Positions 5,232-20,569 of a stretch of DNA of 64,000 nt are shown here, piece by piece. The stretch is from Candidatus Mediterraneibacter surreyensis (GTDB lineage: Bacteria; Bacillota; Clostridia; Lachnospirales; Lachnospiraceae): the NCBI GenBank assembly GCA_019118885.1, contig DWYB01000072.1, forward strand, positions 1-64,000, written 5' to 3'. The notes beneath the pieces are model-generated. The model made no database searches and was not told the origin of the DNA. It worked only from the letters and a program-made list of their open reading frames with translations. Each line of letters starts with the position of its first letter. The first letter of the stretch is position 1. The position numbers and the translations under genes were made by a program.

Positions 5232-6971
5232 ATGGCTTTTGACGGAATCGTCGTGGCAGATCTTGTCCACGAATTCAAAAAAGAACTGATAAACGGACGG
5301 ATTGCGAAGATTGTCCAGCCGGAGAACGATGAACTGCTGCTCACGATCAAGGCGTCAGACGGACAGAAACGGCTTCTCATCAGCGCGGACGCCTCGCTTC
5401 CGCTCATATATCTGACATATGCAAACAAACCGGCTCCTATGACCGCCCCCAATTTCTGCATGCTCCTGCGTAAACATATCGGAGGCGGACGGATCGTAGA
5501 TATCACACAGCCGAAACTTGAGCGCATCATACATTTCACAATCGAGCACTTAGATGAGATGGGGGATCTGTGCCGGAAAGAACTGATCGTGGAGATCATG
5601 GGAAAACACAGTAATATTATCTTCTGCACACAGGACGGAAAGATCATCGACAGCATCAAGCACGTCTCCGCACAGATGAGTTCCGTGCGGGAAGTTCTGC
5701 CCGGACGTGAGTATTTCATCCCGGATACCATGCACAAGGCTGATCCTCTCACGGCAGATGCAGAAACATTTAAAGAACTGCTGTCAACGAAACCTGTTCC
5801 TGTCTCCAAGGCAATTTATACCAGTTTCACCGGCATCAGTCCGGTCACGGCAGAGGAGATCTGTTTCCTTGCAGGTATGGATTCATCTGTTCCTGCTAAA
5901 GAATATTCAGATGACATCCTTTTACACCTGTACACACAGTTTGCGATCTATCTCTCCGCAGTAAAAGAAGAACGGTTCTCACCCGCTATTTACTATGACG
6001 GCAGGGAGCCCAAAGAATTTTCCGCACTGCCTCTGACCCATTTTTCGCAGTACGAGTACAGGGAGTATTCTTCCATGTCCGAAGTACTGCGCACTTACTA
6101 CTCCACCCGCAGCCGGCTCACACGCATCCGCCAGAAATCAGCGGATCTGCGCCACATTGTCCAGACTGCCCTTGAGAGGAACCGCAAAAAATACGACCTC
6201 CAGATCCGTCAGTTAAAAGATACAGAAAACCGGGAAAAATATAAAGTCTACGGCGAACTGATCAACACCTATGGATACAACGTGGAAGAAGGCGCGAAAA
6301 AGCTGGAAGCGCTGAACTATTATACAAATGAAATGATCTCCATCCCGCTTGATCCGACGAAAACACCGCAGGAGAATGCGCAGCGCTATTTTGCGAAATA
6401 CAACAAGCAAAAACGAACTTTTGAAGCGCTCTCCGAGCTGAGCCGGGAAACAAAGGATGACATCACTTACCTGGAATCCATACAGACAGCCCTGGATATT
6501 GCCCTTACTGAAGATGATCTTGCCGGAATCCGGGAGGAGCTTGTAAATACCGGTTATATCAAGCGGAGATTTACAAAGAAAAAGGTAAAGATCAAAAACA
6601 CGCCTCTTCACTATATTTCAAGCGACGGCTACCATATGTATGTTGGGAAGAATAATCTCCAAAATGACGAGCTCACCTTTAATTTCGCCACCGGAAACGA
6701 CTGGTGGTTCCACGCCAAACAGGCCCCCGGCTCCCATGTGATCGTAAAAACAAACGGGGATGAGCTGCCGGATACGACTTTTGAGGAGGCCGGACGGCTT
6801 GCGGCATACTACTCCAGCATGCGGGGCAGCGACAAAGTTGAAATCGACTATGTAGAAAAAAAACATGTCAAAAAGCCAAAAGGTGCGAAGCCGGGATTCG
6901 TCGTATATTATACAAACTATTCACTGGTGATCGACAGTGATATCAGTGGGATACAGGAAGTTACCGGCTGA
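5232..6971 (+). CDS. rqcH: NFACT-family ribosome quality control factor RqcH (Rqc2 homologue)
   Basis: In Firmicutes RqcH binds stalled 50S-nascent chain complexes and directs C-terminal alanine tailing, marking products for degradation. The 579-residue protein has the NFACT-N domain at the start (MAFDGIVVADLVHEFK; LLRKHIGGGRI about residues 77-87), a helix-hairpin-helix and coiled-coil middle (about 290-400), and the C-terminal NFACT-R/DUF814 domain (YHMYVGKNNLQND, then FHAKQAPGSHV about 498-508). The ATG follows GAAAGGAAA. This family was formerly annotated as a fibronectin-binding protein because of a streptococcal member; the ribosomal role is better founded. It is a single-gene unit facing the structured element at 6977-7660. 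Confidence 0.92.
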   Translation: MAFDGIVVADLVHEFKKELINGRIAKIVQPENDELLLTIKASDGQKRLLISADASLPLIYLTYANKPAPMTAPNFCMLLRKHIGGGRIVDITQPKLERIIHFTIEHLDEMGDLCRKELIVEIMGKHSNIIFCTQDGKIIDSIKHVSAQMSSVREVLPGREYFIPDTMHKADPLTADAETFKELLSTKPVPVSKAIYTSFTGISPVTAEEICFLAGMDSSVPAKEYSDDILLHLYTQFAIYLSAVKEERFSPAIYYDGREPKEFSALPLTHFSQYEYREYSSMSEVLRTYYSTRSRLTRIRQKSADLRHIVQTALERNRKKYDLQIRQLKDTENREKYKVYGELINTYGYNVEEGAKKLEALNYYTNEMISIPLDPTKTPQENAQRYFAKYNKQKRTFEALSELSRETKDDITYLESIQTALDIALTEDDLAGIREELVNTGYIKRRFTKKKVKIKNTPLHYISSDGYHMYVGKNNLQNDELTFNFATGNDWWFHAKQAPGSHVIVKTNGDELPDTTFEEAGRLAAYYSSMRGSDKVEIDYVEKKHVKKPKGAKPGFVVYYTNYSLVIDSDISGIQEVTG

Positions 6972-7043
6972 CTGTGAAATTCGTGTTTGTTTCAGAGATT
7001 ATGCGTTATACCGATTAAAAATGTCATATCGATAAGAAGACGC

Positions 7044-7224
7044 AAAAAAGGCGGAACTGCATCGCCATGCCGGCCCGCTCTACCTCAAAGATTTGAATGG
7101 ATGTAACGGCGAAAGGAAATGCTCGTTCATTGGAACTCCCATTTCCTTTCACCTAACATCCAGAACAAATACTTTTCGGAACGCTCCTGCCTTGATGCAT
7201 GGCTCACGCACTTCCGTCTTTTTT
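7044..7224 (-). repeat. structured arm, copy A
   Basis: Minus-strand copy of the conserved arm. In order it has an outer stem with an A6/T6 end, GCCATGC, the constant GGCAGGAGCGTTCCGAA, an ATTTG/CAAAT helix, GGATGT/ACATCC, a 14-bp apical stem (7108-7121 with 7140-7153, one G-U), a mini-stem GTTC/GAAC in the loop, then the constant GAGGTAGAGCGGGCC and closing GCATGGC. Constant loops and variable but paired stems distinguish it from simple sequence decay. Confidence 0.82.
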
Positions 7225-7292
7225 ACTGGTTCATCTAATCGATAGATTTTCCGTGCCGATAATCGCAACAATCGCTGAACAAATACTCATAG

Positions 7293-7344
7293 AAACGGGA
7301 AGAGATCGGGGCTTGTTCGATAAAACTCCCCTCTCTTCCCGTTT
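7293..7344. repeat. central hairpin of the two-arm element
   Basis: Perfect 13-bp stem, AAACGGGAAGAGA (7293-7305) with its complement at 7332-7344, enclosing a 26-base loop that holds a further GGGG/CCCC pairing and the segment CTTGTTCGATAAAA. It is the symmetry centre of the 6977-7660 palindrome. A diverged relative in the opposite sense is at 18730-18773. Confidence 0.8.
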
Positions 7345-7413
7345 TACGAATGTTGGTTGATAGAGTACACTGCGGATAACCAGGAAATCTGACGCCTGAT
7401 GCGGCAGCTGAGA

Positions 7414-7587
7414 GAAGCGGATACTGTATCAGCCATGCATTAAGGCAGGAGCGTTCCGAATACACCTGGTTCTCCCTGTTAGAAAAAAGCAAATGCAAGT
7501 TCCAATGGACGAGCATTTGCTTTTTCGTTACAGGGATTCCAGGGGATGAGGTAGAGCGGGCCGGCATGGCGCTACAGTATCCGCTTC
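7414..7587 (+). repeat. structured arm, copy B
   Basis: Plus-strand arm closed by a perfect 15-bp outer stem, GAAGCGGATACTGTA (7414-7428) with its complement at 7573-7587, then GCCATGC/GCATGGC. Internal helices are CCTGG/CCAGG, CCCTG/CAGGG and a 14-bp apical stem (7482-7496 with 7513-7526). The same helices in copies A and C have other sequences but still pair, while the loops (GGCAGGAGCGTTCCGAA, GGACGAGCATT-like, GAGGTAGAGCGGGCC) are shared. Confidence 0.82.
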
Positions 7588-7658
7588 TCACGGCGTCCGT
7601 AATTCAGATCAGATCCTTTTTTGTTTTCTGCAGAGTAATCTATACAACAAACACGGAT

Positions 7659-8963
7659 TTATTTCTTTTCGCCGTCCTGCCCCATCAGATAATCCACAAA
7701 CTGCTGCGCCGTCCTGCCCGACAATCCGCCATGGGCCAGTTCCCATTTATTCGCCTCTAGGAGCAGCTGTTCCTCCGGCATGTCAATGCCGCCCCGCTGC
7801 GCAAGCACACGGACGATCTCCTGAAACTCTTTCTTATCCGGCGATCCGAAGTAGATTGTCACGCCGAAGCGGGCCACAAGGGATAACTTCTCCTGTACAG
7901 TATCATTTGTGTGCAGATCTTCATCCCTGTCTGCTTTGTCTTTGAATGTCTCGCGGATCAGGTGTCTGCGGTTCGAGGTCGCATAGATCAGCACATTTTC
8001 CGGTTTTCGCTCAAGTCCTCCCTCGATCACGGCTTTCAGATATTTATATTCAATCTCAAATTCTTCAAAAGAAAGATCATCCATGTAAATAATAAACTTG
8101 TAATTGCGGTTTTTCACCTGGGCAATCACATCGTTCAGATCTTTGAACTGATGCTTATACACTTCGATCATGCGGAGTCCCTGATCGTAATACCGGTTCA
8201 GGATTGCTTTGATCGACGAAGATTTCCCCGTTCCCGCATCACCAAAGAGCAGGCAGTTGTTTGCTCTGCGGCCTTTCACAAAAGCCTCCGTATTGTCGAT
8301 CAGTTTCTTCTTGGCAATCTCATACCCTACCAGATCATCCAGATTAACATGAGCGATATTTGTGATCGGTACGATCTCCATATCTCCCCCTTCCGGATGC
8401 TCAATGCGAAATGCCTTGTGCAGTCCCAGTTTTCCGACTCCAAACTCTTTGTAGAACTGAGTCATCTTCTGCTTGAACTCTTCCGCGTCCGCGGCATCTC
8501 CAAGCGCTTTTGCCAGTGTACAGATCCGGTCTCTCACCCGCCGGTTAAAGACCTTTCCATTCCTGCTGCCATTTGTATAATCCATAAGTACCTGAATGCA
8601 GTCCGCCCCCAGATCTTTTTCAAGCTCACTGAAATCATAGTCAAACAGCTCCTTGAAAATGCCGAAGTCATGCAGAGCAACGGCATTGATACTTCCCTCG
8701 ATCTCTCCTACGATCTCGCAGGAAGTACTGTAAGCATTCTCGTCGTTTACAAGGAGAAAAGTCAGATAAGTATGCCAGAGATTCCCCTCAAATCCATGAC
8801 TCACCGACAGCTCCAGAAGTTCATTGACACATTCGAAGAGGAGACTTCTCAGATCTTCTGTATTATAGTATTCGTTCCCATGATTCTCCATGAGAAATGT
8901 CATATCCTGCAGGATGTCTCCATAGTCCATATTTTTATAAAGCATCAGCTCATTTGTGCGCAT
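7659..8963 (-). CDS. DUF815 family AAA+ ATP-binding protein
   Basis: P-loop ATPase of unknown specific role. The 434-residue protein has a helical N-terminal half (about residues 1-200) and a DUF815 AAA+ module with Walker A GDAGTGKSS (241-249), Walker B FIIYMDDLSFEEF (about 290-302) and a sensor-like YATSNRRHLIRE. The family is widespread in Firmicutes and Proteobacteria; no substrate can be read from the sequence. AGGAGG lies 7 nt upstream of the ATG. It follows pheA by 24 nt and is probably co-transcribed with it, though no functional link is known to me. Its TAA stop is shared with the edge of the 6977-7660 element. Confidence 0.88.
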   Translation of the reverse strand: MRTNELMLYKNMDYGDILQDMTFLMENHGNEYYNTEDLRSLLFECVNELLELSVSHGFEGNLWHTYLTFLLVNDENAYSTSCEIVGEIEGSINAVALHDFGIFKELFDYDFSELEKDLGADCIQVLMDYTNGSRNGKVFNRRVRDRICTLAKALGDAADAEEFKQKMTQFYKEFGVGKLGLHKAFRIEHPEGGDMEIVPITNIAHVNLDDLVGYEIAKKKLIDNTEAFVKGRRANNCLLFGDAGTGKSSSIKAILNRYYDQGLRMIEVYKHQFKDLNDVIAQVKNRNYKFIIYMDDLSFEEFEIEYKYLKAVIEGGLERKPENVLIYATSNRRHLIRETFKDKADRDEDLHTNDTVQEKLSLVARFGVTIYFGSPDKKEFQEIVRVLAQRGGIDMPEEQLLLEANKWELAHGGLSGRTAQQFVDYLMGQDGEKK

Positions 8964-14250: not shown

Positions 14251-14607
14251 GTGTCAAGCAAGACGATAAGCCGGGTTATGTCGTTGGACGATCATCTGTC
14301 TAGGCGCAGCGTCGCCGCTGCGCTCGAGCGACCTACCTGAAACGTGACGGGCAGCCACATCGTTTCTATCCGGTCTTGCTTCGGATGGGGTTTACATGTG
14401 CCCCTGCTGTTACCAGCAGGGCGGTAGTCTCTTACACTGCCTTTCCACCCTTACCGGGAAAAATTCCCGGCGGTTTATTTCTGTTGCACTGGCCTTGGAG
14501 TCGCCTCCACCGGACGTTATCCGGCATCCTGCCCTGTGAAGCCCGGACTTTCCTCGTATGCGGCCTTTCGGCTCCAGCATCCGCGATCGTCTGTCTTACT
14601 TGACACA
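14251..14607 (-). ncRNA. rnpB: RNase P RNA, bacterial class A
   Basis: Catalytic RNA that matures tRNA 5' ends. On the minus strand the universal 5' core GAGGAAAGTCCGGGCTTCAC is present, preceded by P1-P2 sequence, and the 3' end reads AACCCGGCTTATCGTCTTGC, as in class A RNAs. The terminal helix P1 pairs GTGTCAAGTAAGAC (14593-14606) with GTCTTGCTTGACAC (14251-14264), which fixes both ends to about 356 nt. A strong promoter places the start near 14608. P1 is followed by TATTTTTAT, so the helix may double as a weak terminator. Confidence 0.96.
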
Positions 14608-17753: not shown

Positions 17754-18575
17754 TTACATTTTCTCGATACTCTTCGTCACAAGTCGTTCGAATTCCGACG
17801 CCCTCTGGTCTGCTACGCTCTGCACGTCCAGATGACTCAGCTCCTCCTTCGAGAGTCCGCTTGCCATATTGGAAATACAGGAAATGCCGCATACACGGAT
17901 TCCAGCGTGACGTGCTGCGATCGCCTCGCATGCAGTACTCATTCCCACTGCATCTGCTCCCAGCACACTAAACATGCGTATCTCGGCAGGGCTCTCAAAA
18001 TTCGGACCTGTCGTCTGAACATAAACGCCGCTCTGGAGGGAAATTCCTTCCTCCGCTGCCGTTGACCGGATCAGCTTCATCAGATCTTCATCATAGATGT
18101 GAGTCATATCCGGAAAACGATCGCCGAGTTCAGACACATTTTCCCCGATCAGCGGAGACGGCACGAAACTGGAAATCTGATCCGTGATCATCATAAAATC
18201 ACCTACGTGAAATTTTTCGTTTATTCCCCCTGCTGCATTCGTCAGAAAGAGGATCTCAATTCCCATCCGCTTCATCAGTCTTGTCGGAAGCACTACGTCT
18301 TCCATCTCATACCCTTCATAATAATGTACGCGGCCTTTCATTGCAACCGCCGGCACATTTCCAATATATCCCAGCAGGAACTTTCCTTCATGCCCCTGAA
18401 CAGTAGAGACAGGGAATCCCGGGATATCTCCGTACGGGATTTCCATTTCCACTTTCATATTCTTCGCATATCCGCCCAGTCCGGAACCAAGGATCAGCCC
18501 CACTCTGGGCACAAAATCGGTCAATGACCTGTAGTATTCATAACACGTTTCAAGCTTTTCATACTGTCTGCTCAT
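17754..18575 (-). CDS. punA: purine-nucleoside phosphorylase, trimeric type
   Basis: Phosphorolyses inosine and guanosine to free base and ribose 1-phosphate for purine salvage. The 273-residue protein has LILGSGLGG (phosphate loop, about residues 26-34), GRVHYYEGY (family signature), LTNAAGGIN and the VGMSTACEAIAARH segment, all of the PNP class II type rather than the hexameric DeoD type. AAAGGAGG precedes the ATG at 18575; the in-frame ATG at 18605 has no site. A good promoter lies upstream, just outside the 18657-19096 element. The symbol follows Bacillus usage. Confidence 0.93.
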   Translation of the reverse strand: MSRQYEKLETCYEYYRSLTDFVPRVGLILGSGLGGYAKNMKVEMEIPYGDIPGFPVSTVQGHEGKFLLGYIGNVPAVAMKGRVHYYEGYEMEDVVLPTRLMKRMGIEILFLTNAAGGINEKFHVGDFMMITDQISSFVPSPLIGENVSELGDRFPDMTHIYDEDLMKLIRSTAAEEGISLQSGVYVQTTGPNFESPAEIRMFSVLGADAVGMSTACEAIAARHAGIRVCGISCISNMASGLSKEELSHLDVQSVADQRASEFERLVTKSIEKM

Positions 18576-18617
18576 AGAGCGCCTCCTTTTATGCCTCATC
18601 TTCATGTCTCAAATGCT

Positions 18618-18646: not shown

Positions 18647-18729
18647 GATAACTGGTCGTGTTTGTTATATAGATCTTCCACTGAAAACAAAAAAGGAATC
18701 TGTTTTGAATTGCGGACGCTAAGATAAGA

Positions 18730-18773
18730 GGGAAGGAAGGGGAGCTTTGTCGAATAAGTTCCGCTCTCTTCCC
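18730..18773 (-). repeat. diverged copy of the central hairpin
   Basis: Stem GGGAAG/CTTCCC (18730-18735 with 18768-18773) around the segment that on the minus strand reads CTTATTCGACAAAG, close to CTTGTTCGATAAAA in the 7293-7344 hairpin. The flanking minus-strand AACAAATACTCAT is shared by both loci. Confidence 0.68.
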
Positions 18774-18846
18774 GTTTCCATGAGTATTTGTTTAGAGATA
18801 GCTGTGATAGCCGGATAGAAAATATTCAGATCTGATAAGACAGCAG

Positions 18847-19025
18847 AAAAAAGGGGAACTGTTTGAGCCATGCGTCAAGGCAGGAGCGTTCCGAAAAGCA
18901 TTTGTTCTGGATGTTAGACGCAAGGGAATAGGAGTTCCACTGGACGAGCATTCCCTTGCGTCGTTACATCCATTCAAATCTTTGAGGTAGAGCGGGCCGG
19001 CATGGCGATGCAGTTTCCCTTTTTT
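18847..19025 (+). repeat. structured arm, copy C
   Basis: Third copy of the arm. The outer stem is AAAAAAGGGGAACTG (18847-18861) with CAGTTTCCCTTTTTT (19011-19025), then GCCATGC/GCATGGC. The ATTTG/CAAAT and GGATGT/ACATCC helices match copy A, and the apical stem is a perfect 13 bp of different sequence (GACGCAAGGGAAT, 18917-18929, with 18950-18962). The constant loops GGCAGGAGCGTTCCGAA, AGTTCCACTGGACGAG and GAGGTAGAGCGGGCC are all present. Confidence 0.82.
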
Positions 19026-19096
19026 CTGTGTCAGTTTATACATTTGAAAATTTTTGTTGAAAATATCGCACGATTTCTATAACAAACAAATCCCCC

Positions 19097-20569
19097 TCAG
19101 ATAATGATACACACCAGTCCTCCGTTCGTATCATTCACGATCTTCTGCATGGAATCCTGCAGCTTCATCTGGCTTTCATCGCCTATCATGGCAATCTTAT
19201 TTCTCATGCCGTCCATGACAAGTTCTTCCACTGTCTTGCCGAAGATATTGGTTCCCCACACGCCTTCCGGGGTCTCGCTCTCTTTCTTGATATACTCCGC
19301 CAGATCCTGAGCCTGTTTCTCGCTCCCCACAATAGGCGCGATCTCCGTCTCGATATTGGCGCGGATCATATGGATGGACGGAGCCTCTGAACGTATCTTG
19401 ACCCCGAATTTGCTGCCCTGTTTGATGATGACAGGTTCATCCAATCTGATATCTTCCTTTGACGGCGTAACTACGCCATAGCCTTTCATCTTCACATTTG
19501 TAAAAGCGTCTTTCAGACTGCTTAGTTCCTCTCTCATGGAAGAGAGTTCTTTTACTGTAGAGATCAGCTCATACTCGCCTGTGATCTGAGTACCGGTAAG
19601 TTCACTGAGTACCTCGTAGTAATAAGACTGCTCATACTGTATCTGGATCCGGACTTTTCCGGTGTCCATCTCGATCTGTTCCACTGTCATATCACGTATA
19701 TACGAGCTGTCGACATTCAGTTCTCTGGATACGATGCTCCGTACATCTTCGAGAGTATCCATCACTGCCCGTACCTGCTCGAGCAGATCTTTCTTGATCC
19801 GATGTTCCCGTGAGAGCATTTCCACCCATTTCGGAATAAAGAATTCAACTTCGGTGATGGGGAATTCGTAGAGTACCTGACGCATGATCTCATGGATGTC
19901 CTCGGGTTTCATCTGTTCGCAGTTTACCGCTACCACAGACGCACCGTATTTTCGTTCCAGTTCCTCTCTCAGCGCTTGTGTTTCATCTGCATATGGTTTT
20001 TTGCAGTTCAACAGGATCAGGAATGGTTTCCCGATGGATTTTAGTTCCCTGACTGTTTTTTCTTCCGCTTCTATGTAATTCTCTCTTGGCAGATCTGTTA
20101 CGCTGCCGTCTGTCGTGACAACGAATCCGATGGTTGCGTGATCATGGATCACTTTCTGTGTGCCGATCGCGGCCGCCTTTGTAAATGGGATCTCATACTC
20201 AAACCACGGTGTCTTTACCTGCCGTTCCACATCGTTTTCAATATGTCCGGAGGCGCCTTCCACCATGAACCCCACACAGTCTATAAGCCGGATCTTTACC
20301 TCCACATCTTCAGAGAGCTTTACCGAAGCCGCCTCCTTCGGTACAAATTTGGGTTCTGTCGTCATGATCGTCGTTCCGGATGCAGACTGGGGAAGTTCAT
20401 CCTTTGTCCGCTCTCTCGCATGTTCATCCGTCATGTTGGGAATCACGAGCAGATCCATAAATCTTTTGATGAATGTAGATTTGCCTGTCCGCACCGGCCC
20501 CACGACACCGATGTATATCTCTCCGTTTGTGCGTGCTTTCATATCTCTGTATACCTGAAATGAATCCAT
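19097..20569 (-). CDS. spoIVA: stage IV sporulation protein A (spore coat morphogenetic ATPase)
   Basis: Polymerises on the outer forespore membrane with ATP hydrolysis to form the base of the spore coat and is needed for cortex formation. The 490-residue protein is full length, with the N-terminal ATPase motif GPVRTGKST (24-32), LIDCVGFMVEGASGH (Walker B region), FLILLNCKKPY and the C-terminal GLVCIII end that anchors the protein through SpoVM. It is the last gene of the DUF512-der-plsY-gpsA-spoIVA series. A sigma-E-like promoter lies upstream. Strong evidence that the organism forms endospores. Confidence 0.97.
   Translation of the reverse strand: MDSFQVYRDMKARTNGEIYIGVVGPVRTGKSTFIKRFMDLLVIPNMTDEHARERTKDELPQSASGTTIMTTEPKFVPKEAASVKLSEDVEVKIRLIDCVGFMVEGASGHIENDVERQVKTPWFEYEIPFTKAAAIGTQKVIHDHATIGFVVTTDGSVTDLPRENYIEAEEKTVRELKSIGKPFLILLNCKKPYADETQALREELERKYGASVVAVNCEQMKPEDIHEIMRQVLYEFPITEVEFFIPKWVEMLSREHRIKKDLLEQVRAVMDTLEDVRSIVSRELNVDSSYIRDMTVEQIEMDTGKVRIQIQYEQSYYYEVLSELTGTQITGEYELISTVKELSSMREELSSLKDAFTNVKMKGYGVVTPSKEDIRLDEPVIIKQGSKFGVKIRSEAPSIHMIRANIETEIAPIVGSEKQAQDLAEYIKKESETPEGVWGTNIFGKTVEELVMDGMRNKIAMIGDESQMKLQDSMQKIVNDTNGGLVCIII

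Follow-up and report, generated by a model that had tools for sequence, protein, structure and literature searches.

The window analysed here is a stretch of 64,000 nucleotides. Near its left end two genes converge, an NFACT gene and a DUF815 gene, and the space between their stop codons is filled by a 684-bp element with two outward-pointing arms. Read from the left, this element consists of an end repeat, arm A, a degenerate internal repeat, a central hairpin, arm B and a second end repeat; arms A and B are halves of one unit, not independent. The limits 6977-7660 had been drawn in an earlier reading made from the sequence only, and they turn out to be the true ends of a two-armed element bounded by 15-bp inverted repeats. 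Five base pairs lie between the NFACT stop codon and the element, and the DUF815 stop codon overlaps the other end. A one-armed relative, element C, lies farther along the window. The features are:

5232-6971, plus strand: NFACT gene, left of the two-armed element (Pfam)
6977-7660, no strand assigned: two-armed element (inverted repeat 6977-7001/7636-7660, exact end pattern, stop codons, Pfam neighbours)
6977-6991, plus strand: left terminal inverted repeat AAATTCGTGTTTGTT (15-bp repeat, exact end pattern)
7040-7228, minus strand: arm A, sense strand reading outwards, that is, leftward (model R1, 193.6 bits)
7278-7292, minus strand: degenerate internal copy of the end repeat, CTATGAGTATTTGTT, beside the centre (match with 4 mismatches)
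7293-7344, no strand assigned: central hairpin with 22-nt arms, 82% complementary (resembles a terminator by look only)
7407-7594, plus strand: arm B, sense strand reading outwards, that is, rightward (model R1, 195.3 bits)
7646-7660, minus strand: right terminal inverted repeat (its end reaches into the DUF815 stop codon, 7659-7661)
7659-8963, minus strand: DUF815 gene, right of the two-armed element and converging with NFACT (Pfam)
17754-18605, minus strand: phosphorylase gene, with element C upstream of it (Pfam)
18652-19094, no strand assigned: one-armed element C, approximate ends (by eye)
18730-18779, no strand assigned: central hairpin of element C (by eye; paired in the predicted fold)
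18842-19030, plus strand: arm C (model R1, 192 bits)
19097-20569, minus strand: SpoIVA gene, adjoining element C (Pfam)

By eye, element C lacks a second arm, and its left side is similar to the flank outside arm B. The internal copy of the end repeat is far clearer in the elements of G027, a single-contig genome, than at 7278-7292. A consensus terminator scan of 6960-7680, which includes 7293-7344, found none and so did not bear out a role for the central hairpin as an intrinsic terminator.

The sequence-only reading placed three arm copies at 7044-7224, 7414-7587 and 18847-19025 and proposed that compensatory change had kept their structure. The copies are there. A MAFFT alignment of the three displays the shared segments that it named, GGCAGGAGCGTTCCGAA, AGTTCCA.TG.ACGAG and GAGGTAGAGCGGGCC, as well as the exchange of ATTTG/CAAAT plus GGATGT/ACATCC in arms A and C for CCTGG/CCAGG plus CCCTG/CAGGG in arm B. 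The helices differ in sequence yet pair, as it had said, and each of the three arms folds into one long hairpin. In the outer stems of arms A and C a run of A faces a run of T (by eye).

The proposal of compensatory change also holds in a larger alignment. We reduced 358 hits to 183 places, 123 unique arms and finally 49 arms below 93% identity; six chimeric or truncated arms were dropped, and 39 of the remaining 43, from this and related genomes, were aligned over 196 columns, leaving out four arms from one genome (G007) that have another apical loop. RNAalifold predicts 65 pairs for this set, 52 of them with changes on both sides, and in the outer stem all 20 pairs show double changes. Standard pairs fill 95.4% of cells, compared with 71.7% (sd 0.6) in shuffled alignments; there are 623 double-change cells where shuffles give 196.2, and the covariation score is 0.640 against 0.199. 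None of 500 shuffles attains any of the five measures, in a test that is inflated by related rows. When the partners are slid by one to three columns, pairing falls to 38.4-49.3%, although such a comparison favours a structure that was predicted from the very rows on which it is tested. These comparisons support the view that the structure of the arm is under selection.

Could pairing be maintained without selection on structure? Long palindromes are prone to template-switch correction, and repair of this kind acting on imperfect palindromes might keep two sides of a helix matched; the loss of arms and of whole halves in some copies would also suit such a process. It would be expected, however, to work on the unpaired internal segments as well, and these are not made to pair: they are among the most conserved columns of the 39-arm alignment. 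Nor would it be expected to produce the lean of G-T over A-C mismatches towards one strand that is described below. We consider template-switch repair an improbable explanation.

None of the arms has a match in Rfam at the gathering score, which agrees with the earlier proposal of a new family. A permissive search returned 13 hits, all under the gathering score of their own family, the best with an E-value of 0.088. The window's sole Rfam match is a bacterial RNase P class A RNA at 14251-14602 on the minus strand.

On which strand is the structure read? The strand comparison used 84 of 180 unique arms, those below 95% identity, without a check by hand. In the structure of the outward strand, G-T outnumbers A-C by 220:78 among these arms. 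To guard against circularity, the count was repeated with pairs taken from the fold of the other strand, where the ratio is 135:81 and 30 pairs lean outward against 9; for pairs common to both folds it is 134:70. Base composition alone would give about 1.3:1, by arithmetic on the base counts. A modest lean towards the outward strand remains, in a set whose rows are related. Since neither strand should be favoured in a symmetric double-stranded cruciform, the cruciform version of the earlier proposal is weakly disfavoured. Folding energy was rejected as proof of RNA: although 82 of the 84 arms fold with lower energy as the outward strand, this is mostly an effect of composition, the difference being -11.6 where shuffling 40 arms once each gives -8.0 (sd 5.5).

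The strand lean invites the reading that the arm is primarily a functional RNA, active in 3'-end formation, processing or mRNA stability, which spread for its usefulness at gene ends, its mobility being secondary. The excess of G-U over A-C, present even on the fold of the other strand, speaks for such a reading. Next to the apical stem GA faces GA (by eye), and a single arm adjoins gene ends at 9 of the 11 loci found in other genera, which also fits. In the two-armed form, however, each arm is antisense to the gene that it adjoins, so that a transcript of the outward strand would require read-through or an internal start, and promoter-like sites occur at chance level (1 against 0.8 expected). 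The composition effect on folding energy likewise removes one argument for RNA. This reading is possible, but we think it somewhat unlikely.

The number and likeness of the copies argue for mobility. In the window's own genome, BLAST gives 47 matches in about 36 distinct places, the remainder being the opposite strand of the same arms; 'dispersed', the word used in the sequence-only reading, is apt. In G027, where 40 of 72 candidates were scored, at least 34 are arms of a single type and 96-100% identical. The exact end pattern occurs 56 times in that genome and its reversed control not once. Element ends there are sharp and, where examined, the flanks are unrelated, with the exception of the repeated Rpn cassettes discussed below. 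Length is 716-786 bp in 17 of the 26 G027 elements measured and 682-688 bp in 10 of 16 from the window's genome. The usual form is noncoding, cargo or nested genes being confined to some copies; the centre takes insertions, namely nested hairpins and IS630-like genes, and a minimal form (L111 2755-2799) has lost the arm and consists of two repeats set back to back. So many near-identical arms in unrelated flanks point to a mobile, MITE-like repeat rather than to one RNA gene. The sequence-only reading had offered 'possible new RNA or cruciform family'. The family stands; simply a new RNA does not, since the arms belong to an intergenic element that is mobile and has terminal inverted repeats.

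Insertion left no duplicated target that we could see. Equal runs of 2-6 bases on both sides were found at none of 26 G027 elements and at 1 of 16 in the window's genome, there at 3 bases only, and in these two genomes the bases before the two ends of an element do not match each other. A duplication of TA was considered and failed once the ends were paired. A search for a parent element with the same ends, covering exact-pattern ends in four genomes and those widely spaced pairs that were opened, found none. With one genome per species compared, no site lacking the element was seen within a species.

How widely is the element distributed? In the genus, 44 of 58 genomes match model R1, the window's own included and one (G009) by a partial match only. 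A family-wide sample yielded matches in 6 of 397 genomes, in four genera of which three are other than its own; this search scored six candidates per genome under strict filters, and absence in it is therefore weak. The 11 loci from other genera include the nine single arms beside genes mentioned above. In a BLAST sample, 23 of 61 genomes match and none of 24 from other families. A pattern scan of genome contigs gave at least 115 loci, 19 of which were confirmed by the model (11 of 26 and 8 of 89), and the rest were taken as chance. Among the confirmed loci listed in named records, 12 of 19 are titled Mediterraneibacter; the other seven come from [Ruminococcus] faecis, Clostridium sp. Marseille-P3244, Dorea, Lachnoclostridium, one 'bacterium' and two contigs of one Lachnospiraceae isolate. 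An exact-pattern search across the order hit 5 of 392 genomes, two of which (G724 and G658) look like chance by eye. In plasmid and phage collections a distant BLAST search at E 1e-5 gave no match, and none of 53 pattern loci in viral contigs (11 and 42) was confirmed by the model.

The position of the element relative to genes is unusual. For subsets of loci from two genomes we asked whether an open frame of at least 70 codons arrives at each element end. In G027 such a frame arrives at 48 of 61 ends examined, and at 29 of these 48 the stop codon overlaps the junction, a few of the ends being copies of one Rpn cassette and not independent. In the window's genome the corresponding figures are 34 of 36 ends and 22 of 34. 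Where there is overlap, the element's first A or AA completes the stop codon of its neighbour. Frames converge from both sides at 17 of 23 G027 elements with long flanks and at 14 of 16 from the window's genome. The element completes both stops in seven of the 17 G027 cases, one in six and neither in four; for the 14 cases in the window's genome the counts are five, seven and two.

The NFACT-DUF815 locus was compared among relatives. Thirty loci were opened, the window's own included, and 15 besides those of the window's genome (G000) and G754 show both genes. The spacer between the aligned gene ends measures 14-106 bp in ten of these, 266-1192 bp in four, and in one the ends overlap. G754 has the element at this same locus with the two arm types exchanged. 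In another relative (L381, genome G011) the locus holds a 1.2-kb insert in which an apparent alpha/beta hydrolase gene lies between palindromes (by eye). We read the fit to stop codons either as replacement of the spacer or as long residence with turnover of content, and the data favour no decision between them. In some relatives a different hairpin abuts the DUF815 stop codon with a similar end (by eye), an observation on the side of turnover.

Some copies carry genes. In four genomes (L350-L353) two arms flank different cargo at what is apparently one locus: by Pfam a ParE-type toxin and DUF2000 in L350 and a Rce1-like match below the cut-off in L353, while the cargo of L351 and L352 was assigned by eye. 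G027 has six cassettes with an Rpn/Transposase_31 gene (PF04754; L110 859-2139 and five more). An element end marks the exact start of all six and, in our own reading, the end of four as well; the cassettes have the look of composite units. A second type of hairpin, with the apical motif GTYTGAGC..GCGAGTT, is represented by 13 distinct strong hairpins, the 13 of 15 motif matches kept by energy in a search that skipped L153-L320. Several lie in elements with the same ends. Examples within these end repeats are L112 4766-5329, L113 2134-3439, L114 879-1310 and L015 997-1494; L015 has one hairpin of each type (by eye).

What moves the element? Two genes found within or beside copies were examined and set aside. 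In two G027 elements (L104 887-2077 and L108 2-1237) the tip of the central hairpin holds an IS630-like gene (DDE_3), but the ends of these genes look unlike those of the element and the genes look nested (by eye). As for Rpn/Transposase_31, we opened 30 loci with such genes outside G027, and 29 of them lack an arm within about 1.5 kb. Matches to Rpn occur in 30 of the 58 genomes and, at E 1e-10, not in G036 or G014; neither Rpn nor reverse transcriptase genes track the copies of the element.

In another scheme a transposase of the Y1/HUH type, an enzyme that inserts without target duplication, would recognise the folded arm as single-stranded DNA. No duplication was seen and one strand is favoured, both in agreement with this idea, and each of the seven carriers tested gives one or more Y1_Tnp matches. 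Yet 12 of 14 non-carriers have one too, and a domain found nearly everywhere says little about Y1 as the mover. G027, the genome with the most near-identical copies, has a single match, in a short IS200-like gene; no gene of the RAYT-like type (about 260-280 aa) was found there. Five other carriers have one, without adjoining arms. Six Y1 loci were opened, and no arm or clear end repeat lay beside them. Moreover, long terminal inverted repeats are not typical of IS200/605. We regard a Y1/HUH mover as unlikely. In the REPIN/RAYT system two inverted hairpins of tens of nucleotides form one mobile unit; the present element resembles it in this arrangement and differs in having hairpins of about 175 nt. 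In five genomes (L454-L458) a RAYT-like Y1 gene of about 260-280 aa stands beside an apparent gene for what we take to be glycyl-tRNA synthetase, or a similar neighbour.

Retrotransposition of an RNA by a reverse transcriptase would account for a structured arm at the 3' side. RVT_1 is absent, however, from G027, G036 and G014, three carriers with many copies, and it is present in 4 of 7 carriers as against 9 of 14 non-carriers. We think this very improbable.

We conclude that the sequence is probably a non-autonomous, MITE-like mobile intergenic element. An enzyme acting in trans would move it by its end repeats, and the same enzyme would probably also read the folded arm, which on either strand lies at the 3' side. 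After insertion the hairpins may serve as a tolerated 3' end that stops, trims or protects the transcripts of converging genes, and such tolerance would explain why copies persist there. That the element works like a MITE is well supported by its terminal inverted repeats and its many dispersed noncoding copies; strict membership of that class is not supported, because neither a target duplication nor a parent element was found. A more specific proposal is that the element is installed from stop codon to stop codon between converging genes. It would replace the spacer, supply the last letters of both stops without target duplication and be read as a folded single strand at the 3' side, with composites carrying cargo between two arms. 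This version we find doubtful.

The element resembles several known systems in part. Integron attC sites keep structure while their sequence is free, and they are placed at gene stop codons. The present element shares both traits and, in some loci, the carriage of cargo between sites; it is much longer. In the descriptions available from PMC2229807, Correia/NEMIS, RUP and ERIC are repeats of about 100-200 bp, most with target duplication, that have inverted repeats at their ends, many intergenic copies and transcripts predicted to form long stem-loops. The present element is like them in these last three respects. It differs in having two arms, a length of mostly 680-790 bp and a fit to stop codons, and in showing no duplication. 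The CIR repeat of Caulobacter and Brucella also has two hairpin arms and a linker; as described in that part of PMC2229807, it lacks such end repeats and has a GANTC motif at the loop. A literature search found nothing on the element; a term search of the main text of PMC8040213 gave no hit, and the supplementary candidates of that paper may include it.

Two things make the element of interest, its covarying single-strand structure and its unusual fit to stop codons. This bacterial repeat allows selection on a folded single strand to be measured over many dispersed copies. The fit raises the question of which kind of transposition, or of later replacement, puts an element exactly at the 3' ends of genes. 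For this gut genus, the element would account for part of the noncoding DNA, and its copies would serve as markers for the comparison of strains.
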